Source: Terriglobus roseus (GTDB lineage: Bacteria; Acidobacteriota; Terriglobia; Terriglobales; Acidobacteriaceae). Taken from it: 64,000 nt of DNA. A model generated the notes under the pieces. That model ran no database searches, was not told the DNA's origin, and worked only from the letters and a program-made list of their open reading frames with translations. The stretch covers positions 2,170,001 to 2,234,000 of the forward strand of contig NZ_FNSD01000001.1 of the NCBI RefSeq assembly GCF_900105625.1, given 5' to 3'. Within the stretch, counting starts at the first letter, position 1. Every line of letters starts with the position of its first letter. Both the position numbers and the translations under genes were made by a program. Positions 29,807 to 48,904 of the stretch are shown here, one piece after another.

Positions 29807-30910
29807 GTGGCGGAGAACTTTCGATCCCAACTCGTGGCATTTGACTGGTCGAAATCCGAACCACTCCATGCATTTCTCTGCCTGCCGGGCATCGCACTGC
29901 CGCTGATCGTCGGCCTGCATTTTGGCTATCCCGGTACAGCCGCACTGATGGTCGGCGGAGCACAGTGCGTCGGCTTCGGATCCTATCAACCGCCACTCTT
30001 CCATCGCTCCGGCGCGATGCTTGCTGCGTCCATCGGCATTGCCATCTCGGCACTGGTCGGAGCGCTCTGCCGGGACAGCACGACTGCGCTGCTGGTCACG
30101 TCCGTCGTGTGGGCTGTGCTCTACGGTCTGTCCAACAGCATCAGCACAGCGACCGCATGGGTCGGCCAGCAGTGCTGTATTTTTCTCGTCGTCTCGTCCG
30201 CAGCGCCAAGCACGCCCGGCACAACGCATGACCTGGTTTATTCCGCGCTGCTGCGTGGAGCGGGCGTGCTGGCGGGTGCCTTGCTCCAATACGCAATCCT
30301 GCTGCTCTGCCGATACTTCGTTGCAGCGGCGCAGACACGTTTCTCAAGCCCGGACTTTGATCCTACGCACTTCCAGCGAGCCTTCCTGCTGGAGCAGTTG
30401 AAGCCCCGCAGTGGCGCCTTTCAGTTCGCACTGCGTATGGGCGTCACAGCAGCGGTTTCCATCGCAATCTACCGGGCGCAGACGTGGACGAGCGCCTACT
30501 GGATCGGCATGACCGCGTTGTTAATCCCGAAACCGGAGTTTTCCGCCACGGCCCTGCGCGCCTTACTACGTGCTGCCGGCACACTCGCGGGCGCCGCACT
30601 CTGCACCGTCATTGTGGTGGAGCTGCAGCCTCGCGGCATGTGGCTCGCACTGCTGGTCCTCGTCTTCCAGTTCGCCGCCTACCTGCTGGCCAACGTGAAC
30701 TATGGCGCTTTCGCGCTCGCGCTGACGGGTTACATCTGCTTTGTACTGGCGGTCGCACATCAGCCACCACGCGAGGTGATGCTGCATCGCGTTCTTGCCA
30801 CGCTGGCCGGCACAGGCATTGCGCTCGCCGTGCACCTGGCGTTCATCCTTGGCCGTAAGGCGCTGAACATCACGCCGCCAACACTCCACTCCCTCGAAGA
30901 GCGGCTGTAA
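29807..30910 (+). CDS. FUSC-family membrane protein
   Basis: The 367-residue protein has two blocks of about five to six membrane helices separated by a cytoplasmic segment (near residues 175-205). This matches the duplicated FUSC/aromatic-acid-exporter fold (YccS/AaeB relatives), here without the large cytoplasmic domains. GTG 29807 is the likely start, with a weak ribosome-binding site. Members are thought to export weak acids; no substrate can be assigned. A hairpin follows its stop. Confidence 0.7.
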   Translation: MAENFRSQLVAFDWSKSEPLHAFLCLPGIALPLIVGLHFGYPGTAALMVGGAQCVGFGSYQPPLFHRSGAMLAASIGIAISALVGALCRDSTTALLVTSVVWAVLYGLSNSISTATAWVGQQCCIFLVVSSAAPSTPGTTHDLVYSALLRGAGVLAGALLQYAILLLCRYFVAAAQTRFSSPDFDPTHFQRAFLLEQLKPRSGAFQFALRMGVTAAVSIAIYRAQTWTSAYWIGMTALLIPKPEFSATALRALLRAAGTLAGAALCTVIVVELQPRGMWLALLVLVFQFAAYLLANVNYGAFALALTGYICFVLAVAHQPPREVMLHRVLATLAGTGIALAVHLAFILGRKALNITPPTLHSLEERL

Positions 30911-30956: not shown

Positions 30957-31060
30957 AGTTTCGCAAAGTGCGGCAGGACTCACGACGGCTTCTGCGCTGA
31001 GTAGAACCCACTCATGCGCAAGAAGGCCGCGCATGAATGGGGCACACCGACGGCGTTGGA

Positions 31061-31736: not shown

Positions 31737-34700
31737 ATGGCCGCCTTCGCTCCCCTGCCGATTGCCGCAACACTGCCGGAGGTCCCTGCCGCCCTGGCGT
31801 GGGCGCACCCCGTGGTGCAGCGATGGTTCGTGGGAAAATTCGGCACACCGACGGAGCCGCAGATCGAGGGCTGGCCCGCCATTCTGCGCGGCGAACCCAC
31901 ACTGATCTCTGCACCGACCGGCAGCGGCAAGACACTCACGGCCTTTCTCGTCGCCATCAACCGCCTGGTCACGGAGGCGATGGCGGGCACACTGTCGCCA
32001 TACACGCAGATCGTCTACGTCTCACCGCTCAAAGCGCTGAGCAACGATGTGCAGAAGAACCTGGAAGAGCCACTGCGCGAGATCCTGCAACTCGCGATGG
32101 AAGACGGCTATCTCTTCCCAGGCATCCGCACTGGCGTGCGCACCGGCGACACACTGCCAAAAGAGCGCGTGGCCATGCTGAAGCAGCCGCCACACATTCT
32201 GGTCACCACACCGGAGTCGCTCTACCTGTTGCTGACGAGCGCGAAGGCGCGCGAAAACCTGCGCTGCGTGCACACCGTCATCGTCGACGAAATTCACGCC
32301 ATGGCCGACGACAAGCGCGGAGCGCATCTCGCACTCACCCTGGAACGCCTCGACGCACTCGTCACCGGAGAGAATCGCCTGACACCGGGCGCCATGCTGA
32401 TGGGTATGGCCAAAGCACCACAACGCATCGGCCTCTCCGCAACGCAGAATCCGATCGAGCTGGTTGCGGATTTCCTCACGGGAGTGCCGAGTGGAAGGTT
32501 TAGAGAACAGGGAACAGGGAAGAGCGCCCCCTCTGAGATTTGTCATCCTCAGCGAAGCGCAGCGAAGTCGAAAGCCTGCCCTGAGCTTGTCGAAGGGGAC
32601 CTGCATTCCGCGCGCACATCACAAATACCGGAGGAAGCCAGCAACTGTTCCCTGTTCCCTGTTTCCTATCCCCTTTACCGTCGCGCCACCATCGTCCAGG
32701 TAGGACAGCGTCGCACGCTCGATCTCGCCATCGAAATTCCCGCCACCGAACTCGGCAGCGTCCGCGACAGCAAGATGTGGATCGAGATCGTGGATCGCAT
32801 GGCCGAACTTGCGCGCGAACACCGCTCCACGCTCGTCTTCGTCAACACCCGCAGCATGGTGGAACGACTGTGCTGCGCGCTGGGCGAACGGCTCGGGGAA
32901 GAGAACGTCGCAGCACACCACGGCTCCCTCTCGCGAGCACTACGTCTCGACGCGGAGCAGCGCCTCAAAGCCGGCGAGATCCAGTGCCTCGTCGCCACCG
33001 CATCGCTCGAACTGGGCATCGACATCGGTGCCGTCGACCTGGTCATCCAGCTCAACAGCACACGCGCCGTGGCCGTCGCCATGCAGCGTGTGGGACGCGC
33101 AGGCCACTGGCGCGGAGCCATCCCTAAGGGCCGCTTCTTCGCCTCCACGCGCGACGACCTGTTGGAGCAGGCAGCGCTCGTCCGCGCCATGCGCTTGGGC
33201 TCGCTCGACAAGCTGGAGATTCCACCGCAGCCGCGCGATGTATTGATGCAGCAGATGGTCGCCATGTGCGGCGCGGAGCCGTGGGAAGAGGATGCGATGT
33301 TCGCGCTGGTCACCCGCGCGTATCCGTATCGCGACCTCTCACGCACCGAGTTCGACGAGATCGTCACGTTGCTGCACACCGGCATTGAGAACTCTCGCGG
33401 ACGCTACGGCGCGTACCTTCTGCGCGACGGTGTCGCCGGCGTGCTGCATCCACGGCGTGGCGCACGCATGACCGCCATCGGCAACGGTGGCGCCATCCCG
33501 GACACGGCGATGTTCTCCGTGGTCCTAATGCCCGAAGGCCACACCATCGCCACACTCGGCGAACACTTCGCCGTCGACAGCGGACCGGGCGATGTCATCC
33601 AGCTGGGCAACTCAAGCTGGCGCATTCTCACCGTCGAAAAAGAAGGCCGCGTCCTCGTCGAAGATGCGCACGGCGCGCCGCCCTCCGTGCCTTTCTGGGA
33701 TGGTGAGGCACCGCAACGCACGGACGTCCTCAGCGACTTCGTCGGCGACCTCCGCAAAGCCATCAGCGACCGCACGCAAGGCGTGCACCATGAACGTGTC
33801 ATTCCTGAAGATCCCGTCGTCGCGGACGCCGTCGCATGGCTGATGGAAGAATGCGCCGTGTGCCAAAGCGCCGCGATGCAACTGGTGCAATACATCGTCA
33901 GCGGCCGCGCCGTTTTGGGCTGCGTGCCCACCAAGACCACCATCGTCGCCGAGCGCTTTTTCGATGAGGGCGGCGGCATGCAGCTCATCCTGCACGCACC
34001 CTTCGGCGGCCGCATCAACAAGGCGTGGGGACTCGCGCTGCGTAAGCGCTTCTGCCGCGGCTTCAACTACGAGCTGCAAGCAGCCGCGACCGACAACGGC
34101 ATCAACATCTGCCTGGCCGAACAGCACAGCTTCCCGCTCGCCGACGTCTTCCACTTCCTGACAGAACACACCGCGAAAGAGCTGCTCGAACAGGCCTCGC
34201 TCGCCTCCCCCATCTTCAAGACACGCTGGCGCTGGGCTGCGAACCGCTCGCTCCAACTGCTGCGCTTCAGCAAGGGCAAGAAGGTACCGCCGCAGATTCA
34301 ACGCACGCGCGGTGAGGACCTGCTGGCCTCCGTCTTCCCGCAAGCCGCGGCATGCTTCGAGACGATCGTCGGCGACATTCAGATCCCGGATCACCCGCTC
34401 GTCCGTGAGGTGATGCAGGACGTGCTGCAGGAAGCAATGGATCTGGAAGGTCTGCAGCAGATCCTGCGCGCGATGCACGATGGCACCATCGAATGCATCG
34501 CCGTCGACACGCCCGTGCCCTCCCTTTTCTCGCACGAATTACTCAACGCCAACCAGAACGCCTTCCTCGACGAAGCCGACCTGGGCGAGCGCCGCGCCCG
34601 CGCCGTCTCCCTGCGAGGCACCATCCCCGACTCCGTCCTCGGCGAAGCAGGCCGACTCGACCCCGCAGCCATCCGCCAGACCCGCTGCGAGATCTGGCCC

Positions 34701-36554
34701 GACCTCCGCGACGAGCACGAGTTGCACGACCTGCTCTTCAGCACCATCGCTCTGCCGGTGGCACTGTTCAGAGAACAGGGATCAGGGAACAGCGAACAGC
34801 ATCCGCGAGGCGAAAACGACCGGGTGCCCCATTCTTGCGAAGCAAGGGCGGGTTCCGATGCCTGCAATGACGAAGAAGTCCAGGCTCACCGAGCACAAGC
34901 AAGCCGCCACTGGCCGCTCTTCTTCGAGCGCCTGCAAGCACGCGGCCGCGCTCAGATCCTCCGTTTCGGCAAAGAAGACTGCTGGGTCGCAACCGAACGC
35001 CTCGAGCACGCACAGGCACTGCAAGCAATCACCTCAAACGCCGGCCCCGCAGCGAAAGGCGCAGAAACTGTTCTCTGTTCCCTGATCCCTGTTCCCTCTC
35101 ACGAAGAAGCCCTCCGCCTCCTGACCCAGGGCATCCTCCAGATCCTCGGCCCCACCACCGCCCGCAGCATCGCCGCGCTCCTCTCACTCCAGCCACGAGC
35201 CCTCGTACAGCAACTCGTCGCCATGGAGATGCAGGGCCTCGCGCTCCGCGGCATCTTCGAAGCACCCGCCGCGGCCGAGGACGACAAGGACGTCGAGTGG
35301 TGCGAACGCCGTATCCTCCAGCGCATTCACCGCCTCACACTCGGCGCACTGCGCAAGCAGATCGAAGCTGTCACGCCCGCCGTCTTCATGCGCTGGCTTG
35401 TGCGCTGGCAGCATCTCGGGCCGCAGACGCAGCTCGCCGGAGAAGAGGGCGTGCTCGAAGCCCTCCTCCAACTCGAAGGCTTCGAAGCGCCTGCCATCGA
35501 GTGGGAGCGGAACCTGCTGCCGCAGCGCGTCAAGGACTACGACGGCAAGTGGCTCGACCAGCTCTGCCTCAGTGGCGCTGTCGGCTGGGGCCGCATCTCG
35601 CCGCACCCCGCGTGGGCCGCCGGCGACGGTGCCGCACCGCGCCGCGTCATCCCCACCAACATGGCGCCCATCACCTTCTTCCTGCGTGAAAGCGCCGACT
35701 GGCTACCGGCAGCGCTCGCCGCCAAGTGCATCGAAGAAGACAAACTCCAGCAAGCCCTCTCGCCCGAAGCGCTCTCCATCCGCAACACCCTGCGCGAGCG
35801 CGGCGCATGCTTCGCCAGCGACCTGCAGCGCATGTGCGTCCTCAGCAAGCAACAAACACAGACCGCCCTCTGGGAACTCGCCACCGCCGGCATCGCCTCT
35901 GCTGACGGCTTCGACCAGTTGCGCATCATGATGGATCCCAAGCGCAAGCCGCTGGCCGCCGAACCCGTCGTGAACGGCGCGCGCCGCGGCACACGCAGCA
36001 CCGCGGGCCGCTGGTCGCTCTTCACAGAAGAAGAGCACCGCGAACTCTCCGCGCCCGAACGAGCCCGCGAGCAGGAAACCTCCCTAGCCGCCGCCGCACG
36101 CATGTTGCTGGCGCGCTACGGCGTCGTCTTCCGCGACCTTCTGCAACGCGAGGCCAACGTGCCCAAATGGCGCGACCTGGTCCGCATGCTGCGCCGCCTG
36201 GAGGCGCGCGGTGAGATTCGTGGTGGCCGCTTTGTCCACGGCTTCAACGGCGAGCAGTTCGCGCTGCCCGAGGCCGTCGAAAGCCTGCGCGCCACACGTG
36301 ATCTGAAGCAGGACGACGTGGTGACACTCGCCGCCAGCGACCCCGTCAACCTCATCGGCGTCATCGTCCCTGGCGAGCGCACCAACGCCGTCGCCGGCAA
36401 AAAAGTCCACCTGCGCGGCGGCGTGCCGTGTGACGTAGCAGGAGAGCCTCTTGACGCAGTCGCAACACCGCAGGGCATCCGCCGCAACACCGCGCCGCGC
36501 GTAGACAAACCCATCCCCGTCCTCGAGCCTCCACAAAGCGGCCTCTTCGCATGA
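31737..36554 (+). CDS. lhr: Large ATP-dependent helicase Lhr, with in-frame repeat insertions
   Basis: The 1605-residue DEAD/H helicase has Walker A (SAPTGSGKT, residues 58-66), the DEIH box (VIVDEIHAM), motif III (LSAT), motif V (ATASLELGIDIGAVD) and motif VI (QRVGRAGH), followed by the winged-helix and beta-barrel Lhr core. A long C-terminal extension makes it of Lhr type rather than short Lhr-Core. Lhr helicases unwind RNA:DNA hybrids and act in DNA repair. Three stretches do not look like protein-family sequence: residues 256-310, about 1012-1048 and 1112-1121. They are read from GAACAGGGAACAGGG-type and TCATCC-type repeats but keep the frame. The first lies between RecA domains 1 and 2, where a loop is tolerated. 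Confidence 0.9.
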   Translation: MAAFAPLPIAATLPEVPAALAWAHPVVQRWFVGKFGTPTEPQIEGWPAILRGEPTLISAPTGSGKTLTAFLVAINRLVTEAMAGTLSPYTQIVYVSPLKALSNDVQKNLEEPLREILQLAMEDGYLFPGIRTGVRTGDTLPKERVAMLKQPPHILVTTPESLYLLLTSAKARENLRCVHTVIVDEIHAMADDKRGAHLALTLERLDALVTGENRLTPGAMLMGMAKAPQRIGLSATQNPIELVADFLTGVPSGRFREQGTGKSAPSEICHPQRSAAKSKACPELVEGDLHSARTSQIPEEASNCSLFPVSYPLYRRATIVQVGQRRTLDLAIEIPATELGSVRDSKMWIEIVDRMAELAREHRSTLVFVNTRSMVERLCCALGERLGEENVAAHHGSLSRALRLDAEQRLKAGEIQCLVATASLELGIDIGAVDLVIQLNSTRAVAVAMQRVGRAGHWRGAIPKGRFFASTRDDLLEQAALVRAMRLGSLDKLEIPPQPRDVLMQQMVAMCGAEPWEEDAMFALVTRAYPYRDLSRTEFDEIVTLLHTGIENSRGRYGAYLLRDGVAGVLHPRRGARMTAIGNGGAIPDTAMFSVVLMPEGHTIATLGEHFAVDSGPGDVIQLGNSSWRILTVEKEGRVLVEDAHGAPPSVPFWDGEAPQRTDVLSDFVGDLRKAISDRTQGVHHERVIPEDPVVADAVAWLMEECAVCQSAAMQLVQYIVSGRAVLGCVPTKTTIVAERFFDEGGGMQLILHAPFGGRINKAWGLALRKRFCRGFNYELQAAATDNGINICLAEQHSFPLADVFHFLTEHTAKELLEQASLASPIFKTRWRWAANRSLQLLRFSKGKKVPPQIQRTRGEDLLASVFPQAAACFETIVGDIQIPDHPLVREVMQDVLQEAMDLEGLQQILRAMHDGTIECIAVDTPVPSLFSHELLNANQNAFLDEADLGERRARAVSLRGTIPDSVLGEAGRLDPAAIRQTRCEIWPDLRDEHELHDLLFSTIALPVALFREQGSGNSEQHPRGENDRVPHSCEARAGSDACNDEEVQAHRAQASRHWPLFFERLQARGRAQILRFGKEDCWVATERLEHAQALQAITSNAGPAAKGAETVLCSLIPVPSHEEALRLLTQGILQILGPTTARSIAALLSLQPRALVQQLVAMEMQGLALRGIFEAPAAAEDDKDVEWCERRILQRIHRLTLGALRKQIEAVTPAVFMRWLVRWQHLGPQTQLAGEEGVLEALLQLEGFEAPAIEWERNLLPQRVKDYDGKWLDQLCLSGAVGWGRISPHPAWAAGDGAAPRRVIPTNMAPITFFLRESADWLPAALAAKCIEEDKLQQALSPEALSIRNTLRERGACFASDLQRMCVLSKQQTQTALWELATAGIASADGFDQLRIMMDPKRKPLAAEPVVNGARRGTRSTAGRWSLFTEEEHRELSAPERAREQETSLAAAARMLLARYGVVFRDLLQREANVPKWRDLVRMLRRLEARGEIRGGRFVHGFNGEQFALPEAVESLRATRDLKQDDVVTLAASDPVNLIGVIVPGERTNAVAGKKVHLRGGVPCDVAGEPLDAVATPQGIRRNTAPRVDKPIPVLEPPQSGLFA
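32502..32667. repeat. Repeat insertion 1 inside lhr, framed by GAACAGGGAACAGGG inverted arms
   Basis: The left arm AGAGAACAGGGAACAGGGA (32502-32520) pairs with CTGTTCCCTGTTCCCTGTTTCC at 32645-32666. Between the arms is part of the TGTCATCCTGAGC repeat (TGTCATCCTCAGCGAAGCGC and GGGGACCTGCATTCC). No stop codon arises in the helicase frame across it. Confidence 0.8.
34770..35097. repeat. Second inverted pair of GAACAGGG repeats inside lhr
   Basis: AGAGAACAGGGATCAGGGAA begins the left arm at 34770-34792, and its near-complement CTGTTCCCTGATCCCTGTTC begins the right arm at 35075-35097. They flank about 280 bp of helicase coding sequence. Just inside the left arm another repeat motif, CGACCGGGTGCCCCA (34817-34831), with a TTGCGAAGCAA mini-hairpin is translated in frame. 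Confidence 0.75.
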
Positions 36555-45492: not shown

Positions 45493-45692
45493 TGTCATCC
45501 TGAGCGAAACAAAGCGCAGCGTCGTGCAATCGAAGGACCTGCATTTCGCTTCGCGGTTTCACAAATGTGGAGGGCGCTCCAGCCATATTTGTGCCGCCAC
45601 CAGCAGGATGCGGGTCCTTCGACTTCGCTGCGCTTCGCTCAGGATGACAGCTCCTAGTGAGGCGGTCCGTTCTGCGCTTCGCTCAGGATGAC
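45493..45692. repeat. Palindromic intergenic repeat, copy 2 plus extra half
   Basis: TGTCATCCTGAGCGAAACAA at the left and CTTCGCTCAGGATGACA (ending 45649) at the right form the family ends. Inside are CGAAGGACCTGCATT and GGGTCCTTCGACTTC. A second right end, TGCGCTTCGCTCAGGATGACA, follows at about 45672-45692. The whole 45367-45750 gap holds only this repeat; a short open frame through it (45412-45657) is not considered a gene. Confidence 0.85.
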
Positions 45693-45750
45693 AGCGCGAG
45701 CAAGGGAACGATCCGGCCCTGAAAGCAACGCAATCTGGCTCTGAAACCAA

Positions 45751-46692
45751 CTACATGTTCGTGTGGCCGCCGCGCATCTCTTCGTTAAAGGTGGGACGCG
45801 TGAAGGCAAGTGCCTCGGCCATACGCTCCTCGTACTCGCCGTGGTGGCTCATCAGAGGCTCGGTGCTCGCGGCAAACTCGAACTTCGGATCGAGCTTCAG
45901 GATGCCCTCGCCGGCCAGTGCCTCAGCCGTCTTCTTCAACGACTCAACCGTTGTGTTGAGGTACTGCGCATCGCGCGGATCTGCAATCCACACCGGCTCA
46001 CCGCCGCCCAGGATGCCGCTGGCCCAGTAGACCTTGGCCGCAAGGAAATCCGCGCGCTGCTGCTCGTCGGTGTCATTGAAGATGAAGCGGCCCTGCTTCG
46101 CCGAGTAGTAGCGCGTCGTCACCGGCACCGGCTGGCGGTTGCCGCTCTTCGTCAGTTCGATCTGGCCCTGATCCAGGATCTTGCGGACGGCGTTGTAGAT
46201 AAAGCTCTCCGCAAAGATCTGCTCAGGCGCCGGAACGACCTCGGCAAACGTGACCGTCATGCTGGCCGAAACCTTGGCCTTGAGCTGCTGATCGGCGGGC
46301 GTCTTGCCGTCTTCCAGCTTGGTGTCGCCGTGCACGATGTAGGTGTCGGCGCCGCTGGTGGACAGGTGGAACGGCCACTGCCAGCCGCTCATGCTCATGG
46401 GCAGGCCGCCCAGCGTGACGTAAACATCAGGCCGAGGATTGCGCAGACGCTGCGCGACTTCCAGCAGGAAAGTATGCACGGGCTTGCTGCAGACAGGGTT
46501 CGCCAGGTCGAAGCCAACACCCAGTTCCAACTGCAGGGTCTTCTCCGGCGCGGACGGCAGCGCCAACGTGTACTTCTCGGTCGGCGCGCCGTTAAAGCCA
46601 GAACTGACGACACCATCCAACACGGCCAGACCGGCCTCTTGCGCAGCCTTCTGCACACCCTGCGACAACTTCGTATCCAATGCGATTGCCAT
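45751..46692 (-). CDS. Conserved hypothetical protein
   Basis: The 313-residue protein has no signal peptide or membrane helix and no motif I recognise. Features are a VHTFLLEVAQRLRNPRPDVYV stretch, a mixed alpha/beta pattern and a C-terminus ending FNEEMRGGHTNM. Normal codon use and clean ends support a real cytoplasmic protein. It is isolated between two repeat-filled gaps, so context is uninformative. Confidence 0.7.
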   Translation of the reverse strand: MAIALDTKLSQGVQKAAQEAGLAVLDGVVSSGFNGAPTEKYTLALPSAPEKTLQLELGVGFDLANPVCSKPVHTFLLEVAQRLRNPRPDVYVTLGGLPMSMSGWQWPFHLSTSGADTYIVHGDTKLEDGKTPADQQLKAKVSASMTVTFAEVVPAPEQIFAESFIYNAVRKILDQGQIELTKSGNRQPVPVTTRYYSAKQGRFIFNDTDEQQRADFLAAKVYWASGILGGGEPVWIADPRDAQYLNTTVESLKKTAEALAGEGILKLDPKFEFAASTEPLMSHHGEYEERMAEALAFTRPTFNEEMRGGHTNM

Positions 46693-46850
46693 TGCTGCTC
46701 TAAGCCCTCTTGCGGTTTCCGTACGCAGCCCTCACAGGGCCGCGCCAAATCTGAAATTTCGTGACACTCCATGGTAACGCGACGGGCCGGACGGGCCTAA
46801 ACCGGCCGGTCTCCACGAGATCGTCCCGATGCCGGGTGCCCCCTCAGAGT

Positions 46851-47006
46851 TGTCATCCTGAGCGGAACGGAGCGTGGCGTAGTGCAGTCGAAGGACCTGC
46901 ATTCTGTTTGTCGTTGCACACAGGTTGACGGCAGACCTCGCACATCTTTGCCGCTGCAAGCGGAATGCAGGTCCTTCGACTCCTCTACGCTCCGCTCAGA
47001 ATGACA
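46851..47006. repeat. Palindromic intergenic repeat, copy 3
   Basis: TGTCATCCTGAGCGGAACGG on the left and CTCCGCTCAGAATGACA on the right are inverted. CGAAGGACCTGCATTC and GAATGCAGGTCCTTCGACT repeat the inner palindrome. Flanked by GGGTGCCCC at 46834, the motif seen in the lhr and hemH insertions. Confidence 0.85.
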
Positions 47007-47019
47007 AATCCAGGAGGAG

Positions 47020-47092
47020 GACAACTCGAGATGATGACAACTCACTCAGGAGGAAACATCGAGAGAATGACAACTCGCTCGGACGACAACTC
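47020..47092. repeat. Four spaced GACAACTC direct repeats before rnc
   Basis: GACAACTC begins at 47020, 47036, 47069 and 47085, spacing 16, 33 and 16. The set lies 62 bp before the rnc start. It could be repeat debris or a binding array; the pattern is exact but short. Confidence 0.4.
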
Positions 47093-47153
47093 GAGGGGAT
47101 CGCCATTCAGGCCCATTGAGTCCCGCTCCCGCGAACCCGTACCATGGAGGACG

Positions 47154-47993
47154 ATGGCAAAGCGCCCCACCAAGACGGCAACTGCGGACGATTCGCTGGA
47201 AGTGCGCCTCCGCTACCGCTTCCGCGACGCCGCTCTGCTGCAACTGGCGCTTACGCACAGCTCCCTTGCCTTTGAAGCGGGAGACGGCCGTACCAACGCT
47301 ACCGGCGAAGACAACGAACAGCTCGAATTCCTGGGCGACGCCGTCGTCGGCCTGCTCATCACGGAATTGCTCGTCCGCCACTTCCCGGAGCGCCGCGAGG
47401 GCGACCTGACCCGCATGCGCGCCATGCTGGTCAGCGGCAAGGGCATGGGCGAGGTGGGCGTCCGGCTGGGCCTTGGACGCGATCTGCATCTGGGCAAGGG
47501 TGAGGACGCCAGCGGCGGACGCACCAAGTCTGCCTTGCTGGCCGACGCCGTCGAGGCACTCGTCGCCGCAATCTATCTCGATGCGAACGCAGCCACACCC
47601 GGCGGCAACGGTGGCGCCGGCCTGAAGGCCGCGCGATCGTTCGTCGAACGAGAGATCTTCCAGCCGCGCCTGGCCGAACTGAAGTCTGCCGCGCAGCAGG
47701 GCGCACGTTTCGGCGGCATCGTCGGCGATTGGAAATCGGCACTGCAGGAGCTGCTGCAGGCGCGCGCAGCCGGCCAGCCGCTCTACCGGACGGTGGAAGA
47801 GATCGGCAACGACCATAACAAACGCTTCCGCGTGGAGGTTCTGCTGGGCGACCGCGTCCTCGCCGAAGGTGAAGGCACCAGCAAGAAGTCTGCGCAGCAG
47901 GCTGCCGCGCGCGTGGCGTACGACGTCCTCTCTCCTGCAGTGGGCGAACTCGCGGACGACTCCGGCATTCCGGCTACGGGCACGCAGGGATGA
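47154..47993 (+). CDS. rnc: Ribonuclease III
   Basis: The 279-residue endonuclease cleaves double-stranded RNA in rRNA and mRNA processing. The signature NEQLEFLGDAVVGLLI holds the catalytic acidic residues and ADAVEALVAAIYLD the second set. A double-stranded RNA-binding domain occupies about 170-245 (DWKSALQELLQ; GTSKKSAQQAAARVAYD). The N- and C-termini are longer than usual by about 20 residues each. GGAGG is just before ATG 47154; the upstream open frame is repeat DNA. Overlaps lepB by 4 nt. Confidence 0.95.
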   Translation: MAKRPTKTATADDSLEVRLRYRFRDAALLQLALTHSSLAFEAGDGRTNATGEDNEQLEFLGDAVVGLLITELLVRHFPERREGDLTRMRAMLVSGKGMGEVGVRLGLGRDLHLGKGEDASGGRTKSALLADAVEALVAAIYLDANAATPGGNGGAGLKAARSFVEREIFQPRLAELKSAAQQGARFGGIVGDWKSALQELLQARAAGQPLYRTVEEIGNDHNKRFRVEVLLGDRVLAEGEGTSKKSAQQAAARVAYDVLSPAVGELADDSGIPATGTQG

Positions 47994-48682
47994 TGGCCCG
48001 TATGGGCAATGCGTTCGCGGACGCCCTGGGGCAGGTGGTGGGATCGCTTGCGCGCCTGACGGTGGTCTCACTCTTCATCATCACGTTCCTCGTGCAGCCC
48101 TCGCAGATCCCCACCAGCTCCATGGAACCGACGATGCTTGTCGGCGACTTCGTCCTGGTGAACAAGCAGGTCTTTGCAACACCCGGCCACTGGCGCTGGC
48201 TGCTGCCCTACCGCGAGCCGCGCCGCGACGACATCATCGTCTTCCACTACCCGGTCGACCCATCGGAACTGCTGGTGAAACGTGTCATCGCCACGCCGAC
48301 AGACCGCATCCACCTTCGCCGAGGGGCTGTCGTCCTCAATGGCAGGCCCGTCGCTGAGCCCTTTGCCGCGTACTCTCCTGCGGAACGCTCCGCCTACCGC
48401 GATGAGTTCCCTAACCTGCAGCGTGCCGACCCGGCAGCCGAAGCGACATGGTGGATCGAGCTGCGGCATCGCATTCGCGGAGCCGATCTACCAATCCCGG
48501 ACAGCCGCTACTTTGCCATGGGCGACAACCGCAACAACAGCCAGGACAGCCGCTTCTGGGGCTTCGTGCCCCGCGAAAACATCGTGGGCGAACCACTGAT
48601 GGTCTACCTGAGCACCGAACGCACGACCGGATCTGCACGAGGGCGGCTGCGCTGGGATCGCATCGGCATGGTGCTGCGATAG
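47990..48682 (+). CDS. lepB: Signal peptidase I
   Basis: The 230-residue inner-membrane protease has one N-terminal helix (LTVVSLFIITFLV), the Ser motif IPTSSMEPTM, the Lys motif DIIVFHYPVDPSELLVKRVIA and the C-terminal GDNRNNSQDSRFWG box. All catalytic boxes B-E are present. It cleaves Sec signal peptides. Start ATGA overlaps rnc, an rnc-lepB pairing also seen in other bacteria. Confidence 0.95.
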   Translation: MMARMGNAFADALGQVVGSLARLTVVSLFIITFLVQPSQIPTSSMEPTMLVGDFVLVNKQVFATPGHWRWLLPYREPRRDDIIVFHYPVDPSELLVKRVIATPTDRIHLRRGAVVLNGRPVAEPFAAYSPAERSAYRDEFPNLQRADPAAEATWWIELRHRIRGADLPIPDSRYFAMGDNRNNSQDSRFWGFVPRENIVGEPLMVYLSTERTTGSARGRLRWDRIGMVLR

Positions 48683-48709
48683 GCAGCCGGATGCCGACCC
48701 CACCAGACT

Positions 48710-48904
48710 TGTCATCCTGAGCGGAGCGTAGCGAGGTCGAAGGACCTGTATTCCGGTTGCAGCCACAGAGGTGCCAGGCATGCCTTCCATATGTTTGCCG
48801 CCATTAGGCAGAATGCAGGTCCTTCGACTGCACTCCGCTGCGCTGCGTTCCGCTCCGGATGACAAACTCTCTTTTCGACTTCGCTACGCTTGCTCAGGAT
48901 GACA
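48710..48904. repeat. Palindromic intergenic repeat, copy 4
   Basis: Starts TGTCATCCTGAGCGGAGCG and includes CGAAGGACCTGTATTC and GAATGCAGGTCCTTCGACTG. It has a first right end at CGCTCCGGATGACA (48866) and an additional right end TGCTCAGGATGACA at 48904. The 48683-49015 gap holds only this. Confidence 0.85.

Follow-up and report, generated by a model that had tools for sequence, protein, structure and literature searches.

The lhr gene of a Terriglobus genome provides a well-supported case of repeat DNA, of a known kind, that has turned into tolerated protein loops. In the reading favored here, to which we assign a probability of about 0.85, multi-copy non-coding repeats have entered three disordered loops of Lhr and are translated there; the added residues would be near-neutral and only in-frame insertions would survive. 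The inserts are in frame, they lie where homologues have short variable loops, their flanks are conserved, and they consist of multi-copy repeats. Two classes of repeat appear to be involved: palindromic elements, comprising a ~140-nt GTCATCC inverted-pair element (REP) and a GGGTGCCCC palindrome, and convergent arrays of the heptamer GGGAACA. The window, which is the whole 64,000-nucleotide stretch of DNA that was analysed, corresponds to positions 2170001-2234000 of contig C1 of this 4.81-Mb genome (G000).

The host gene is an ORF of 1605 amino acids with no interruptions, and its product was identified as Lhr by matches to six Lhr or helicase Pfam models above their cut-offs (DEAD, Helicase_C, WH_Lhr, DEAD_assoc, WH3_Lhr and WH4_Lhr), which cover the RecA core, the Lhr winged helix and the C-terminal domains. 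This bears out a first-pass annotation of the sequence, which had placed the repeats inside a 1605-codon Lhr gene with its frame unbroken. The closest comparison is with genome G011, which we take to be T. roseus DSM 18391 (NC_018014.1), the sister of G000; the two Lhr proteins are 93-96% identical. The features of the gene are as follows.

31737-36554, plus strand: lhr gene, 1605 codons, intact, with the flanks of the sites under purifying selection
32499-32678, plus strand: site 1 insert, codons ~255-314, in the linker joining the two RecA domains; absent in G011 and in G003, G007 and G013
32502-32524, plus strand: left heptamer arm of site 1, (GGGAACA)n, from the array scan (32505-32521) and repeat matches
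32538-32638, plus strand: GTCATCC palindromic element, left half, which contains an insertion (by eye) and is matched by blastn to other genome copies
32645-32674, minus strand: right heptamer arm of site 1, from the array scan; pairs with the left arm in predicted RNA
34769-34799, plus strand: heptamer arm of site 2, whose last unit coincides with the native GCGAACAG of T. roseus
34822-34853, plus strand: GGGTGCCCC-type palindrome of site 2, within codons ~1013-1043, with other genome copies and, in the G016 loop, a more complete palindrome of this kind
34866-35036, plus strand: native Lhr codons between the two arms, aligned in the genus rows
35068-35097, minus strand: heptamer arm of site 3, codons ~1111-1121, from the array scan; an inverse match to the site 2 arm

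At site 1, convergent GGGAACA-heptamer arms flank half a GTCATCC palindromic element, all in frame, and the loop measures 77 codons in G000 vs 17 in T. roseus. The earlier suggestion that part of an intergenic TCATCC repeat lies inside the gene was correct, as a GTCATCC repeat with one mismatch is found at 32542 (9 in the window vs 0.15 expected) and the half element matches other G000 copies by blastn at 85% over 32538-32590 (53 nt) and at 79% over 32597-32638. Alignments to the solved Lhr structures 7lhl and 5v9x end at residues 250 and 249, respectively, and restart at 318, with just three chain residues of 7lhl in between. In addition, residues 254-311 are the sole stretch below pLDDT 50 in an AlphaFold model of this region (model 1; mean pLDDT 81, pTM 0.72).

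Site 2 (codons ~1013-1043) is composed of a heptamer arm and a GGGTGCCCC palindrome, and site 3 (codons ~1101-1121) of an opposing heptamer arm that matches the site 2 arm in inverse at 28 of 30 bases. The palindrome, GGGTGCCCCATTCTTGCG at 34822, is a third kind of repeat that was missed in the first-pass annotation; it occurs at 16 places in the genome at up to one mismatch (control, 0). Another GGGTGCCCC-type copy, with 2 mismatches, is located at 31030-31047 (minus strand) of the window, between ORFs ending at 30910 and 31061. Microhomology may have guided the entry of the site 2 arm, whose final GCGAACAG is native in T. roseus. Two inverted repeat pairs had been proposed for the gene, and two convergent pairs are indeed present, but the second is not one insert: its arms, spaced 268 nt apart, occupy separate loops and enclose ~170 nt of native Lhr codons, and a single inverted element at 34770-35097 was rejected because native Lhr makes up most of what the arms bracket. 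The residue ranges first given (256-310, ~1012-1048 and 1112-1121) are refined here to ~255-314, ~1013-1043 and ~1101-1121. In a second AlphaFold model (mean pLDDT 75, pTM 0.55), residues 1017-1039 and 1107-1115 fall below pLDDT 50 and residues 1101-1121 have no secondary structure. However, native residues 920-964 also fall below 50 in this model, so the evidence for disorder is weaker at sites 2 and 3. The three sites are thus predicted to be low-confidence coil in models built from 27 and 28 sequences, although a low pLDDT does little to prove disorder. The view that the added residues do not resemble Lhr and fall in likely loops agrees with the presence of repeat DNA where homologues have short variable loops.

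The heptamer arrays are well separated from background. All four arrays detected in the window (32505-32521 and 34769-34799 on the plus strand, 32645-32674 and 35068-35097 on the minus strand) are inside lhr, and GGGAACAGGGAACAG gave 11 matches at up to 3 mismatches vs 1.34 expected, a number reached in 0 of 100 shuffles. The array score of lhr is 24, compared with at most 16 in 200 synonymous shuffles and at most 12 in 200 codon-order shuffles, which excludes a chance origin of the arrays; 11 of 12 other window slices scored 7-9, and the twelfth, at 21, overlaps site 1. Across 31 rows of this Lhr (those of G004, G012 and G014 partial), an array was found in G000 only, with other rows scoring at most 10. 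Mutations are present in some of the G-tracts that make up the Lhr arms. In the G000 genome, the heptamer 15-mer matched 23 times at up to one mismatch vs 3 for the reversed control, overlapping matches inside one array being counted separately. The match at 1423890 (L004), which by eye resembles the start of a cold-shock gene, was treated as coding and left aside. The exact 15-mer is present in 7 of 61 genomes (G007 42, G005 10, G001 4, G000 3, G004 1, G017 1 and G056 54) and its control matched once over all 61, in G020. The spread is patchy: G056, from another family of the class, has 54 exact 15-mers together with 23 REP cores, and most genomes in between are without a heptamer match.

Neighboring arrays tend to face each other. 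Among 24 loci plus the window, all seven pairs within 500 nt were convergent, namely two in Lhr, two in G000 intergenic regions (rpoA-rplQ and beside prs), two in G056 and one in G007, the gene names being assigned by eye. When exact matches were used, neighbors within 500 nt comprised 4 convergent, 2 same-strand and 1 divergent case, the three exceptions all from G056. The convergent arms of the rpoA-rplQ region (G000:C1:3460153-3460318; L021) are missing in T. roseus, and G005 has different, GGGATTA-like convergent arms there.

The REP core is likewise a multi-copy sequence. At up to two mismatches it was found at 89 places in G000 vs 1 for the reversed control; neighbors within 500 nt were plus/minus in 21 cases, minus/minus in 8, plus/plus in 6 and minus/plus in 0, and 18 of the 21 plus/minus pairs are spaced 134-167 nt apart, as in an inverted pair that forms one unit. 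Seven two-mismatch matches in long ORFs were set aside as chance, six with their context examined (191868, 243246, 2439620, 3130989, 4382579 and 4698877) and the seventh, 1769202, within the range of an Lhr paralogue. Of the remaining 82 copies, at least 3 are intragenic (one in Lhr and two in a lumazine-synthase fusion); this is a lower bound, in that five further long ORFs over REP copies (645862, 723643, 834102, 2384880 and 2942570) were not accepted as host genes for want of any Pfam match. The proposal that these repeats are normally intergenic, with non-coding copies elsewhere, is therefore sustained, as most G000 copies are outside recognized genes. The window itself contains seven cores (up to 3 mismatches) at 45494-48863, several of them in inverted pairs and apparently intergenic. 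At up to one mismatch, the core is present in 41 of 61 genomes, with high counts in the genus and family (G007 237, G016 188, G004 100, G010 54, G000 47, G011 10, G006 and G018 0), and the control count is 0 in all 61.

Comparative analysis of Lhr, by protein alignment and from the nucleotides of 13 genomes, shows that the same three loops are filled in several relatives. Lhr matches were obtained in 58 of 61 genomes (E up to 0.001, paralogues included) and, at 1e-150, in 18 of 19 genus genomes; G009, without an orthologue at this threshold, was not counted, G012, split over two contigs, was left outside the tree and the 16-row block count, the frameshifted G004 gene was represented by its longest frame so that its sites 2 and 3 were unread, and the G014 row is cut at site 1. 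In the 16 genus rows, insertion blocks of at least 10 residues in the protein body (columns with gaps in 40% or more of the rows) occur only at the three sites, all others being at the two ends or no longer than 8 residues. Site 1 is filled in G000, G016, G010 and G004 among 17 readable genomes (G009 and G014 excluded). Among the 17 readable for sites 2 and 3 (G004 and G009 excluded), site 2 is filled in G000 and G016, and site 3 holds heptamers in G000, REPs in G016 and G010, a decayed REP in T. roseus, longer variable sequence in G014, G001 and G018, and at most ~8 extra residues in the rest. The expectation that the segments would be absent in relatives thus holds for site 1 of the sister species, but not for G016, G010 and G004, which carry their own repeats in these loops, nor at site 3 of T. 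roseus, with its decayed REP. The insert common to G010 and G004 offers few sites and differs by 22 changes (dN 0.16, dS 0.22, dN/dS 0.72, vs 0.13 and 0.04 in the flanks), as expected of a sequence that is probably tolerated rather than conserved.

Between G000 and T. roseus, dN/dS of lhr takes values of 0.060 upstream of site 1, 0.020 from site 1 to site 2, 0.102 from site 2 to site 3, and 0.049 downstream of site 3. Since site 1 is empty in T. roseus and purifying selection on the gene is strong, the G000 gene is very probably translated through its inserts. That lhr is instead a dying or frameshifted pseudogene whose inserts are not protein is very improbable: several insertions within one gene and the interrupted copies of two metagenome bins (G004 and G014) would fit, but the gene has 1605 uninterrupted codons, dN/dS since T. 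roseus is 0.02-0.10 to either side of every site, and the insert-bearing orthologues of G016 and G010 are open. Even harder to credit is the notion that the segments are native low-complexity loops which resemble repeats by chance. A native GAACAG at site 2 of T. roseus lends it something, but the array score lies beyond all 400 shuffles, the match to genome copies is 85% over 53 nt and the REP control counts are near zero, so we regard it as refuted by the array, copy and control counts.

The favored explanation supposes that non-autonomous repeats insert widely and that selection purges all insertions except in-frame ones in permissive loops, so that the same loops would be re-used across species; the inserted residues would most likely be near-neutral spacer rather than a new functional domain. 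Three observations sit less easily with it. G007 has the genus maximum of both repeats (237 REP cores and 42 exact 15-mers) and an insert-free Lhr, so repeat copy number alone does not predict insertion; four Lhr arms among about a dozen G000 arrays seem more than neutral scatter would give (an informal count from sampled loci); and site 1 parsimony is tied, since on a tree that joins G000 with G011, then G003/G007/G013, then G016 (support 84), then G010/G004, three gains and one gain plus two losses take three steps each by our count. This tie also suits an alternative that we consider possible though unlikely, in which each loop received one old insertion that was inherited and then diverged or was homogenized by gene conversion. 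The strand and frame of the site 1 REP agree among G000, G016, G010 and G004 (CHPQ/CHPE/RHPE), and site 3 reads VILSEAKD in both G016 and G010, with a decayed VVPSEAKQ in T. roseus. But the site 1 repeats are of differing subtypes, sites 2 and 3 hold unrelated repeat kinds, and the site 3 REPs of G016 and G010 are identical over 24 nt in genes whose synonymous sites differ by 54% (dS 0.96). Only 17 of 555 amino-acid-identical 8-codon windows are also nucleotide-identical between these genes, which favors separate insertion or homogenization over plain descent.

It is improbable that the convergent heptamer arms are kept as an mRNA (or DNA) stem that would tune Lhr expression, with translation incidental. 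The arms are predicted to pair in RNA at 34766-35101 (z -3.9, 0 of 100 shuffles as stable) and at site 1, 32498-32680 (z -3.5, 1 of 200), and for the four G000 pairs the true pairing has the best score of 24. Such arrays often have convergent neighbors, though, so the arms could pair without any role specific to Lhr; the Lhr site 3 arm is a better fit for the left prs arm than that arm's own partner is, only G000 among the 31 Lhr rows (three partial) has an array, and translating ribosomes would melt the stem. A regulatory role of the arms is possible and nothing requires one; the original idea that the inserts alter helicase regulation or mRNA folding is speculative, with predicted arm pairing as its sole support. 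A bolder proposal is a long shot, namely that the loops are true hotspots of insertion or retention, that arms arise paired around a host segment with one copied as the inverse, that a coding mRNA stem regulates this repair helicase, and that the helicase may act on structures by which the repeats spread. The last suggestion comes from the second Lhr paralogues, which also carry arrays: among 18 rows, G017 scored 21, G001 16 and others at most 11. The in-frame G017 array (L205; G017:C4:2881294) accounts for the single exact heptamer match in that genome, the G001 array (L228) is identified by score, and REP-like peptides, recognized by peptide only, are seen in the linker of the paralogue (G014 and G017) and in a late loop (G004).

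To return to repeats that become tolerated loops, a lumazine-synthase fusion (G000:C1:3412569-3413720; L166:1570-2721) appears to be a second gene with the same pattern as Lhr. Its linker holds two in-frame REPs in G000 and a GTGGGGCACCCG palindrome instead in T. roseus; the linker is short and without insert in G003, G013, G010, G004, G018 and G014, and without insert by coordinates in G007 and G016. The first domain is VOC-like by eye and Pfam finds the synthase only. An ORF of G016 that is uvrA-like by eye (L312:615-3695) has a REP at its N-terminal end, which may be 5' untranslated, and was not accepted as a host.

How mobile non-coding repeats become protein can be tested here in a clean and datable way: the loop is empty in one of two sister species and filled in the other, further relatives hold different repeats there, and the enzyme lends itself to assay with or without its insert. 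Such a test bears on a question raised for Rickettsia in passages of one report, whether shared positions reflect an insertion hotspot or one old, diverged insertion (PMC3767692). In addition, the case shows that coding sequence can arise from G-rich heptamer arrays, which are usually intergenic. In line with the initial impression that no such case was known in Acidobacteria, no description of Acidobacteria or Terriglobus with such repeats, or of Lhr with palindromic insertions, was found in open-access PMC papers (supplements excluded), and passages of a survey of two acidobacterial genomes report many short repeats with no in-gene case among them (PMC3174227). As far as found, the phylum is new, as are two unrelated repeat classes that share loops of one gene.

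The Rickettsia palindromic elements (RPEs), to which the inserts were first likened, are said to have been described by Ogata in 2000 and 2002 as intragenic and in frame. The analogy is right in kind: both involve palindromic repeats of ~100-150 nt in frame within genes, in solvent-exposed or disordered segments (disorder in Lhr being predicted from model confidence only), with different groups at the same loci and a debate between hotspot and common origin. Passages of two reports likewise describe RPEs as read in frame in exposed protein parts, with a debate about hotspots (PMC10969869, PMC3767692). In contrast, Terriglobus belongs to another phylum, most of its copies are outside recognized genes and its loops also hold a second, non-palindromic repeat class.

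Two inverted REPs are said to form one short mobile unit, the REPIN. Terriglobus REPs also form inverted pairs, but no Y1 transposase gene flanked by them was found: 0 of 28 Y1_Tnp loci in 8 genomes (two cut by contig ends) had a REP on both sides, and 2 had a single core 1.0-1.5 kb off; a ninth genome, G034, had no such locus. A RAYT-driven REPIN is therefore rejected as far as flanking shows. In-gene REPs are already known in many species, which qualifies the Rickettsia analogy. Sections of a 2013 study describe intragenic GTAG and CGTC REPs in replication and repair genes, with repair genes prominent, helicases among the hosts and some REPs at a roughly shared position across related species (recB), CGTC repeats without an adjacent transposase, and RPE-4/6 counted as CGTC repeats (PMC3733652); its main text lacks the word Terriglobus and mentions T. 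saanensis once, as a transposase host. G000 REPs differ from those in these sections in having no constant CGTC tag, since among 30 distinct cores (up to one mismatch, sampled stretches) 2 were preceded by C, 27 by T and 1 by G; the Lhr inserts of G010 and G004 do read CGTC.

The heptamers resemble not RPEs but the GGGNATC arrays of Xanthomonas and Nostoc, which parts of a 2015 paper present as G-rich 7-nt tandem repeats such as GGGAATC, mostly intergenic, often with convergent neighbors (70 and 75 cases) and with 7-11% overlapping an ORF at least partly (PMC4692102); heptamer repeats described in portions of another report include a few within ORFs (PMC4679880). The Terriglobus arrays share the 7-nt G-tract unit and convergent neighbors, and most of those in G000 outside Lhr appear intergenic by eye; they differ in their unit, GGGAACA or GGGATCA, and in placing four arms in frame in one conserved gene.
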